Part shown: positions 24,347 through 30,222 of the stretch, piece by piece
Numbering within the stretch: position 1 is the first letter of the stretch
Layout: each line of letters begins with the position of its first letter
Source: Draconibacterium orientale
GTDB taxonomy: Bacteria; Bacteroidota; Bacteroidia; Bacteroidales; JAADGE01
Reading direction: 5' to 3'
Assembly: GCA_020721645.1 (NCBI GenBank)
Contig: DYMH01000010.1
Coordinates: 1 to 35,678 of the forward strand
Length of the DNA stretch: 35,678 bases
Made by a program: the position numbers and the translations under genes
The notes under the pieces: generated by a model
The model's database searches: none
Seen by the model: only the letters and a program-made list of their open reading frames with translations
Told to the model about the DNA's origin: nothing

Positions 24347-25381
24347 TTATTTTTTTAAGAAATCGAGTTTGTCGAAAGTTTTTTTCTTTCTCAGAAAAAA
24401 GCTCATAACAATGCTTTTATTATAAGTTTCGGAATGTTTTGTTTCTATTTTTGTTAAATTCATTCGTTTTCGTATGTATTTTGGTATCCATGCGTAAAAT
24501 GCAAAATGAGCTTTGATAACTGCCAAAAAAAATCTGAATTTTCCGTTCAAAAGATAGACTGTTCCAGACATTCCGTCTAAAATTAGGCGTGTAAAAATTG
24601 CCGGAATGAGTCGACGTTTGGGCAAATTTTTCAATAAAAGTAGTAAATTGTTTCGATAATTCAGGAATATTTTTCGCGGATTTTCGTTCGGCAAAGTTCC
24701 GCCCCCGACATGAAAAACGTGAACCGTATTTACATTTTTAATCGAATATCCTTGATTTTTCAATCGCCAACATAAGTCTATTTCTTCCATGTGAGCAAAA
24801 AAATCATTGTCCAGACCACCCAATTTTTTGTATAAATCGGCACGAACAAATAAACAGGCTCCGCTTGCCCAAAACACATCGGAAATTCCGTCGTATTGTC
24901 CGGAATCTTCTTCTAATACGCTGATAATTCGTCCTTTGCAAAACGGATATCCGAATTTGTCGATATATCCGCCTGCGGCTCCGGCATATTCAAATTTGGT
25001 TTTATCGAGATACGAACGCAATTTCGGTGCTGCCGCCGCGATATTCGAGTCTTCGTCCATTGTTTGAACAATCGGAAGTATCCAGTTGGGAGTTACTTTA
25101 ATATCAGAATTCAGTAAAACAAAATATTTAGCATCTATCAAATTCAAGGCACGATTGTAGCCTTCTGAAAATCCGTAATTTTTATCTAAAAGAATGAGTT
25201 GAATTTCCGGATATTTTTTTTTCAGAAAGTCAACAGAATCATCGCCGGAACCATTATCGGCAATAAAAATTTGAGTGCCTTCTTCTTGTGAATATTCGAC
25301 AACAGAAGGCAGAAATTGTTCGAGAAAATTTTTCCCGTTCCAATTCAGGATTACGATTGCTGTTTTTATATTTTGTTTCAA
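24347..25381 (-). CDS. GT2 family glycosyltransferase (rhamnosyltransferase-like)
   Basis: 344-residue inverting glycosyltransferase of the WbbL/RfbF type for cell-surface glycan synthesis, at the inner face of the cytoplasmic membrane. AIVILNWNGKNFLEQF (about 8-23), IADNGSGDDSVDFLK (about 40-54), VLLNSDIKVTPNW (DxD-like NSD, about 88-100) and HMEEIDLCWRLKNQGY (about 196-211, the ED base motif) are clear. The C-terminal 100 residues are basic and amphipathic. The only start that keeps the N-terminal strand is TTG at 25381; those three bases also begin a heptad array. Together with the DPM1-like gene and suhB it forms a minus-strand glycan cluster. Confidence 0.87.
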   Translation of the reverse strand: MKQNIKTAIVILNWNGKNFLEQFLPSVVEYSQEEGTQIFIADNGSGDDSVDFLKKKYPEIQLILLDKNYGFSEGYNRALNLIDAKYFVLLNSDIKVTPNWILPIVQTMDEDSNIAAAAPKLRSYLDKTKFEYAGAAGGYIDKFGYPFCKGRIISVLEEDSGQYDGISDVFWASGACLFVRADLYKKLGGLDNDFFAHMEEIDLCWRLKNQGYSIKNVNTVHVFHVGGGTLPNENPRKIFLNYRNNLLLLLKNLPKRRLIPAIFTRLILDGMSGTVYLLNGKFRFFLAVIKAHFAFYAWIPKYIRKRMNLTKIETKHSETYNKSIVMSFFLRKKKTFDKLDFLKK

Positions 25382-25434
25382 GTATTTAGTATCAAGTATT
25401 TAGTATCAAGTATTTAGTAACAAGACTCAAGATT
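25379..25434. repeat. Heptad word array, 8 units, containing a start codon
   Basis: CAAGTAT and TTAGTAT alternate three times (last word TTAGTAA), then CAAGACT and CAAGATT: 56 bases in exact 7-base register. The first CAA is, on the minus strand, the TTG start codon of the glycosyltransferase. The array would be the immediate 5' untranslated region of that gene. Confidence 0.85.
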
Positions 25435-25468
25435 GATGAAAAACATTTAATTCCATTCATTATTTTCA

Positions 25469-25524
25469 TTTCCACATTCTCAAATTTCCACATTTCCACA
25501 TTTCCAAATTTTCACATTTTCATC
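25469..25524. repeat. Octad word array, 7 units, containing the suhB stop
   Basis: Seven 8-base words: TTTCCACA, TTCTCAAA, TTTCCACA, TTTCCACA, TTTCCAAA, TTTTCACA, TTTTCATC. The suhB stop codon (TCA on the plus strand, 25512-25514) lies within the sixth word, so the last codons of suhB are written in the array. Confidence 0.85.
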
Positions 25525-28848: not shown

Positions 28849-28876
28849 CAAGTATCAAGTATCGAGTATCAAGTAT
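28849..28876. repeat. Heptad word array, 4 units
   Basis: CAAGTAT, CAAGTAT, CGAGTAT, CAAGTAT in exact register. ACAAGTATCAAG (28848-28859) also occurs, on the opposite strand, in the arrays at 6348-6389 and 17646-17666. It lies between mtaB and lgt. Confidence 0.8.
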
Positions 28877-28895
28877 AAAGAATGAATAAAATGTC

Positions 28896-28922
28896 TTCAT
28901 TACTTTCATTACTTTGATTACT
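28896..28922. repeat. Nonad word array, 3 units, at the mtaB stop
   Basis: TTCATTACT, TTCATTACT, TTGATTACT: the only 9-base period found. It ends one base before the mtaB stop codon (28924-28926), and the heptad array at 28849-28876 lies 19 bases further on. Confidence 0.75.
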
Positions 28923-28923
28923 T

Positions 28924-30222
28924 TCAAGATATCACCACATTTCCTTTTAAATTGTGGCTTTCGGCGATTTCTGTCAGTTCAAAGAGTTTTGTAACATTTC
29001 GCAAATTTTTATCGAACGGAATTTCAACTTTGATGTAATTATCTGTAAATCCGTACATTTTGCCTTTTGAATTGGAGGCTTCAAAAAGTACTTTTCGTTG
29101 TGTGCCGAGATGTTTTTGGTAAAATTCTTTGTGTTTTTGTTCCGAAAGTTGATGTAATTTTTGGCTTCGTTCGGAAATTATTTTGGGTGATATTTTGTCG
29201 TTCATTTCGGCTGCCGGCGTTCCGGGACGAATGCTGTACGAAAATACGTGGAGAAACGAAATGTCGGAATTTTCTAAAAATTGATATGTGTCTGCAAAAT
29301 CTTTGTCCGATTCGCCGGGAAAACCCACAATTACATCGATTCCGATAAAAGCATCGGGCATAATTTCTTTTATTTTTGATATTTTAACTGCAAAAAGTTC
29401 TCTGTTATATCGACGTTTCATCAATTTCAGCAGTTTGTTACTTCCGGATTGCAGCGGAATGTGAAAATGAGGTAAAAATTTTTGCGAATCGGCTGTGAAA
29501 CGGATAATTTCTTCGGTCAGCAGATTGGGTTCAATCGACGAAATTCGGTAACGTTCGATGCCTTCTACTTTATCCAAAGCTCGAATTAAATCCAAAAACG
29601 ACTCGCCCGTTGAGCGACCAAAATCGCCGATATTTACACCTGTGAGAATAATTTCTTTGAAACCTTTTTCCGCAATTTCGCGAGCTTTTTCAACAGTTTT
29701 TTCAATTGCATCGTTTCGGCTCATGCCGCGAGCTTTGGGAATTGTACAATAGGTACATACGTAATCGCAACCGTCCTGAATTTTTAGAAACGAACGTGTT
29801 CTGTCGTTCGATGAATATGCTGCATCGAAACGTGTAACATCATCAATTTCACAGGAATAGATTTGCGGTTCTTTCAATTTTCTGAAATTTTCGATGTGCT
29901 CAAACAGCTTGAATTTTTCGTTCATTCCCAAAACAATGTCCACGCCCGGAATTTCTGCAATTTCCTGCGGTTTGAGCTGAGCGTAACAGCCTGTAATTGC
30001 TATAAAAGCATCGGGCGACGATTTTTGTGCTTTTTTAACAGCTTGTCGGCATTTTTTATCGGCAATGCTTGTTACCGTGCAGGTGTTTATTACGACAACA
30101 TCAACCGGTTCGCCGAATTTAACTTTCTCGAAACCGCGTGCCAAAAAATCTGCCGCGATGGTCGATGTTTCGGAGAAATTGAGTTTGCAGCCAAGTGTGT
30201 GGAAGGAGACTTTTTTGGTCAT
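28924..30222 (-). CDS. mtaB: tRNA t6A37 methylthiotransferase
   Basis: 432-residue radical-SAM enzyme that converts t6A37 to ms2t6A37 in tRNAs reading ANN codons. The N-terminal MTTase domain has three cysteines (HTLGCKLN with Cys12, INTCTVT, ITGCYAQ) for the auxiliary cluster; the radical-SAM motif is DGCDYVCTYCTIPKARG (about 151-167, Cys-X3-Cys-X2-Cys). Substrate motifs GVNIGDFGR, HIPLQSGSNKLLKLMKRRY and VGFPGE follow, and a TRAM domain closes the protein (about 365-432). HTLGCKLN and LQSGS..LLKLM..RY separate MtaB from MiaB and RimO. Complete. Confidence 0.95.
   Translation of the reverse strand: MTKKVSFHTLGCKLNFSETSTIAADFLARGFEKVKFGEPVDVVVINTCTVTSIADKKCRQAVKKAQKSSPDAFIAITGCYAQLKPQEIAEIPGVDIVLGMNEKFKLFEHIENFRKLKEPQIYSCEIDDVTRFDAAYSSNDRTRSFLKIQDGCDYVCTYCTIPKARGMSRNDAIEKTVEKAREIAEKGFKEIILTGVNIGDFGRSTGESFLDLIRALDKVEGIERYRISSIEPNLLTEEIIRFTADSQKFLPHFHIPLQSGSNKLLKLMKRRYNRELFAVKISKIKEIMPDAFIGIDVIVGFPGESDKDFADTYQFLENSDISFLHVFSYSIRPGTPAAEMNDKISPKIISERSQKLHQLSEQKHKEFYQKHLGTQRKVLFEASNSKGKMYGFTDNYIKVEIPFDKNLRNVTKLFELTEIAESHNLKGNVVIS

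Follow-up and report, generated by a model that had tools for sequence, protein, structure and literature searches.

What fills the gap between suhB and a glycosyltransferase gene in Draconibacterium orientale, and do the repeats that make it up govern the ends of the two genes they touch? The gap lies within the window, the whole stretch of 35,678 nucleotides analyzed here (contig DYMH01000010.1), and the gene order on the minus strand is suhB (26312-25512), which encodes a 266-residue member of the suhB-like inositol monophosphatase family (Pfam PF00459, E=1.7e-59), then the gap, and then GT2 (25381-24347), which encodes a 344-residue GT2 glycosyltransferase (Pfam PF00535, E=1.1e-16, residues 9-119). 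The gap is 130 nt long and is made of repeats. Eight consecutive 7-mers, indicated by TRF and lag identity, occupied 25380-25435 of the plus strand (AAGTATT, TAGTATC, AAGTATT, TAGTATC, AAGTATT, TAGTAAC, AAGACTC, and AAGATTG). The true unit of this heptad array was 14 nt, two heptads in alternation (AAGTATT TAGTATC), which TRF reported at 25369-25424 with a period of 14, 4.0 copies, and 92% matches and for which the lag-14 identity was 39/42. An octad array of the CATTTCCA/AATTTTCA type occupied 25467-25524 of the plus strand, as indicated by TRF (25467-25519, period 8, 6.6 copies) and by a lag-8 identity of 39/48. When the gap was shuffled 20,000 times with dinucleotides preserved, neither lag value was reached (0/20,000 each), in support of the two flanking arrays that the original prediction had described. 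Head-to-tail units of about 7 nt, the mark of intergenic short tandem repeats of the STRR/heptamer-array kind, were thus present in the gap.

The octads extended into suhB. The TGA stop codon (25512-25514, minus strand), assigned by translation and giving a C-terminal length that agreed with orthologues, lay inside the octad array together with the last three codons (M-K-M), as had been predicted, and SuhB orthologues ended at the same place (e.g., FMKN* for MMKM* here). At the opposite side, the heptad array had been said to open with the TTG start codon of GT2; the start indeed lies at the array, and the position is refined in that TTG (25379-25381, minus strand) spans the boundary of the first heptad. 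This TTG was the sole start before the nearest in-frame upstream stop, a TAA located 21 nt before it and inside the heptad array. Downstream, no start-like codon occurred before a TTG at codon 79, and no ATG before codon 108, in agreement with the claim that no alternative ATG exists near the GT2 N terminus. GT2 relatives at 58 to 67% identity were found in most of 20 other family genomes. Orthologues were also inspected for a start elsewhere, and their starts, several of which were GTG or TTG, instead scattered within about 4 codons of this TTG (about -4 to +3). We conclude that TTG at 25379-25381 is the only usable start of GT2 and, because orthologous GT2 genes start within about 4 codons of it and SuhB ends where its orthologues do, that the array displaced neither the GT2 start nor the suhB end. 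The gene ends are ancestral in position.

The order of suhB and GT2 was also seen elsewhere, and the gap measured at most 24 nt in the distant relatives L032 and L033, from which we infer that the gap probably grew. In a Prevotellaceae MAG (L107), the same gap was filled by roughly 140 nt of a different sequence that was repeat-like, had inverted ends (GTCATTGCGAGG...CCTCGCAATGAC), and resembled a further dispersed repeat. Of 110 orthologues, this one included, 11 had tandem arrays in the 300 nt upstream of GT2, and the units of these arrays were unrelated; several of these arrays ended within about 12 nt of the GT2 start. In one relative, G008, a stretch of about 300 nt in front of this GT2 gene (L026, 1230-1490) consisted of octads (the GAAAATGTG type, TATAATTG) and nonads (AATTCAGTC), and G005 (L022), of the same genus as G008, had no such repeats there. 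No second-strain copy of the suhB-GT2 gap was found in 21 family genomes, the best match in G006 being about 67% identical.

If arrays that carry a stop and adjoin a start were to slip, they could switch the GT2 start or the SuhB C terminus and so make the gene ends phase variable. A simulation covered all duplications and deletions by 8, 16, or 24 nt within the octads and by 7, 14, or 21 nt within the heptads, with all cut positions weighted equally, whereas real slippage favors matching units. Of 129 octad duplications, 127 had no effect on SuhB and two altered a single residue. Octad deletions left SuhB unchanged in 90 of 129 cases and otherwise lengthened it by 8, 10, or 32 residues; loss of the TGA-bearing unit, with its extension of 8 to 32 residues, is one result that favors phase variation. 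Gain or loss of a 14-nt heptad unit kept the GT2 start in all cases (106/106), and changes of 7 or 21 nt, which amount to half-unit events, moved the start at some positions (by +7, +37, or -78 residues) and likewise favor phase variation. The simulation contained no event that changed both suhB and GT2, and thus array growth or loss does not in general alter both gene ends as the original prediction had supposed. We conclude that the gene ends are mostly buffered against unit changes. The switching of frame or start with unit number that defines a phase-variable SSR was not the behavior seen in the simulation; some losses and half-unit events did matter.

Length differences between strains also bear on phase variation. 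The gap had been expected to vary among strains, and variation was observed at another locus: a TTAATTC array with flanks 99% and 96% identical had seven units here and four in the G006 strain, which establishes one whole-unit length difference, of three heptads, between near-identical strains. The C35 composite had the same length in both strains and differed in its substitutions. The G006 contigs L200, L204, and L210 were 96 to 99% identical to L159, L167, and L006 of this genome (G000) and are probably stray, and the array comparisons for L204 and L210 were partly masked by N runs. Assembly N runs also lay inside heptad arrays at L003 and L176 (G000 contigs C262 and C185), and array lengths in this genome are therefore partly limited by assembly. 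At L228, L286, and L287, heptads were followed by their own inverted copy (e.g., AAGACACAAGAATGGGAAATGACTCATTTCTTGTGTCTT) in a hairpin-like arrangement near gene ends.

Arrays were a habit of the genome. Autocorrelation of its intergenic DNA peaked at lags of 7, 8, 14, 21, and 24 nt, and 135 intergenic arrays were counted in 761 kb, 69 with periods that were multiples of 7 and 32 with multiples of 8; the 761-kb sample was partly picked for array matches, and its unselected part gave the same picture. Copies were thus dispersed and mainly intergenic within one genome, as in the STRR and heptamer arrays. In the same 761 kb, 15 arrays contained a stop codon, compared with 14.6 ± 3.3 when arrays were slid at random within gaps, a test that covers stop codons, start calls having been made by rule. 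An enrichment of stops in arrays was rejected, as the observed number equals random placement. Stops at chance frequency count against phase variation, as do GT2 starts that never moved with 14-nt changes, octad gains that almost never altered SuhB, and the lack of a simulated event affecting both genes, and even with the variable heptad copy number seen elsewhere, we regard phase-variable gene ends as highly improbable.

The roughly 30 nt that separate the heptads from the octads were not a plain spacer. BLAST of the gap against its own genome returned other loci with heptads, spacer, and octads in identical order, and the full order was heptads (AAGTATC), a core (AAGACACAAGATTGAAGAAAA), nonads (TTCATTNNN), and then octads (CATTTTCA). 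The consensus of 12 aligned copies was AAGTATCAAGTATCAAGACACAAGATTGAAGAAAATnnCTTCATTACTTTCATT, with octads after it in most of them. A sequence-only model, R1, detected 26 copies in the genome, and a search with the core pattern found 30 copies with at most 3 mismatches, compared with 0 for a reversed-pattern control. In the gap, R1 matched 25413-25461 (E=3.1e-11), this copy being a member of the training set, the pattern search placed the core (AAGACTCAAGATTGATGAAAA for the consensus AAGACACAAGATTGAAGAAAA) at 25422-25442 of the plus strand, and a degenerate nonad part (unit TTCATTNNN), which resembles the nonad stretch of other copies and falls within the R1 match, lay at 25443-25466 of the same strand. 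A second composite in the window, indicated by TRF and by sequence, occupied 28849-28926 of the plus strand, with heptads at 28849-28880, the core, and nonads at 28896-28926. It was matched by R1 from outside the training set (28867-28910, E=4.2e-9), and the stop codon (28924-28926) of the gene at 28924-30222 fell in its nonads. We conclude from these sequence matches that the suhB-GT2 gap represents one copy, now diverged, of a composite that is dispersed in the genome.

About 26 composite copies sat between unrelated genes. Among the best 60 of 167 matches, similarity between loci was confined to the element or to other repeat arrays and did not involve flanking genes, and thus the copies are not gene duplications. 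The order was also fixed around octads in general: of 43 octad arrays, same-strand heptads were found 5′ of 7 and 3′ of 0, and nonads were found 5′ of 6 and 3′ of 0. These results establish a dispersed family of fixed order and intergenic placement. Octads on their own were divided 16 versus 13 between orientations, and the idea that they are oriented in themselves was rejected.

Orientation of the whole composite was biased. With gene calls made by longest ORF, 17 of 26 copies ran along the transcription of both neighbors and 3 ran against it (p=0.0026), and the composite typically started 0 to 15 nt after the upstream stop. One candidate explanation is a functional intercistronic RNA element that lies along transcription from stop to start and acts in processing, stability, or translation. 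Consistent with an RNA element, the heptads preceded a weak conserved hairpin (UGAAG...CUUCA) in which one change was two-sided and several were of the G-U type, and other heptads precede start codons in Beggiatoaceae (PMC4679880). The consensus folding energy, however, was only -0.5 kcal/mol (RNAalifold), which is unconvincing, and no Rfam family came near its gathering score, the search returning two sub-threshold chance matches of which neither was on the gap. Moreover, both window copies belong to the three anti-oriented exceptions, the octads alone are unbiased, and the composite is absent from relatives that have the orthologous genes. An RNA element is unlikely on this evidence. In the window, heptads adjoin the GT2 start, whereas most composites have octads beside the start.

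The composite was absent from 20 other family genomes, apart from one G006 contig. Over 2.35 kb, that contig shared 99% identity with one of G000, and given the 7% contamination of G006 it is probably a stray from this species. Among 395 genomes of the phylum, the composite core gave scattered single matches only, in numbers similar to those of controls and hence at chance level. At the level of the order, 33 of 119 genomes matched the composite query, mostly through its octad part, and the octad unit alone was more widespread than the composite. Such a lineage-restricted distribution among unrelated genes, together with a position close behind stop codons and a gap that probably grew, could indicate a small nonautonomous mobile element that inserts beside stop codons along transcription. 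Against mobility, neither terminal inverted repeats nor target duplications were seen by eye in the copies inspected, and each array type was also found alone. We think a mobile element improbable.

The gap can be compared with known systems. Cyanobacterial STRR (short tandemly repeated repetitive sequences) consist of 7-nt tandem units that are intergenic and dispersed. The repeats described here share these properties and differ in unit sequence and phylum, and we know of no fixed 7-9-8 composite among STRR. Intergenic heptamer arrays beside gene ends, the TAACTGA direct repeats among them, occur in Beggiatoaceae, Cyanobacteria, and some Bacteroidetes, and TAACTGA-type arrays differ between strains by 7 nt and have stop codons that limit their entry into genes (MacGregor 2015, PMC4679880). 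The arrays here resemble TAACTGA repeats as intergenic heptad arrays with many copies per genome and with mixed heptamers in Bacteroidetes gaps; TAACTGA arrays often lie beside start codons and differ between strains in 7-nt steps (PMC4679880), features seen here at the GT2 start and at one other array, respectively. The arrays here differ in unit, which is AAGTATT/TAGTATC and not TAACTGA, in the linkage of heptads to nonads and octads in an invariant order, and in the placement of most composites, which come after a stop with their octads closest to the following start. One survey ranks satellites derived from heptamers with the most abundant families in bacteria and interprets such satellites as products of local duplication and, in some species, transposition (PMC6749651). 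Like the repeats here, they are short-unit satellites scattered through one genome; the families compared from that survey differ in sequence and are not known to have a composite order (PMC6749651). We conclude that the suhB-GT2 gap belongs to the known intergenic heptamer-array kind. A description of the fixed heptad-core-nonad-octad order was not found in a literature search that mostly covered papers available without subscription, and the 7-9-8 order appears to be undescribed so far.

We read the repeats of the gap as putative intergenic filler, a case of the short-tandem-repeat kind already known. The gap is probably a diverged dispersed composite that forms part of a genome-wide filling by 7- and 8-nt satellites, most likely as neutral filler. 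In such a scheme, the intergenic DNA of this Bacteroidales genome is habitually filled by 7- and 8-nt satellite arrays, copies of the composite would have dispersed from gap to gap, arrays would grow and shrink by whole units, presumably through slippage, and repeats would spread until they met coding sequence. The octads contain recurrent TGA, and the heptads recurrent TTG, TAA, and TGA, on the strand read here, so that a gene end that touches an array would easily find a stop or start inside. The element at the suhB-GT2 gap would itself most likely be neutral. Pure neutrality, however, does not predict the 17:3 orientation bias, for which a preference at insertion or a role at the RNA level may be responsible. 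A tentative proposal, which we consider rather doubtful, is that the 7-9-8 composite constitutes a new family of dispersed elements in this lineage, used or inserted along transcription between one stop and the next start.

The reading of the gap as satellite filler has three consequences. Satellite-like DNA can occupy bacterial intergenic gaps as far as the last codon and leave the gene ends in place. For annotation, stops inside arrays are common in this genome and are usually harmless. Finally, the occurrence of three periods in a fixed order is a constraint on any model of array formation.
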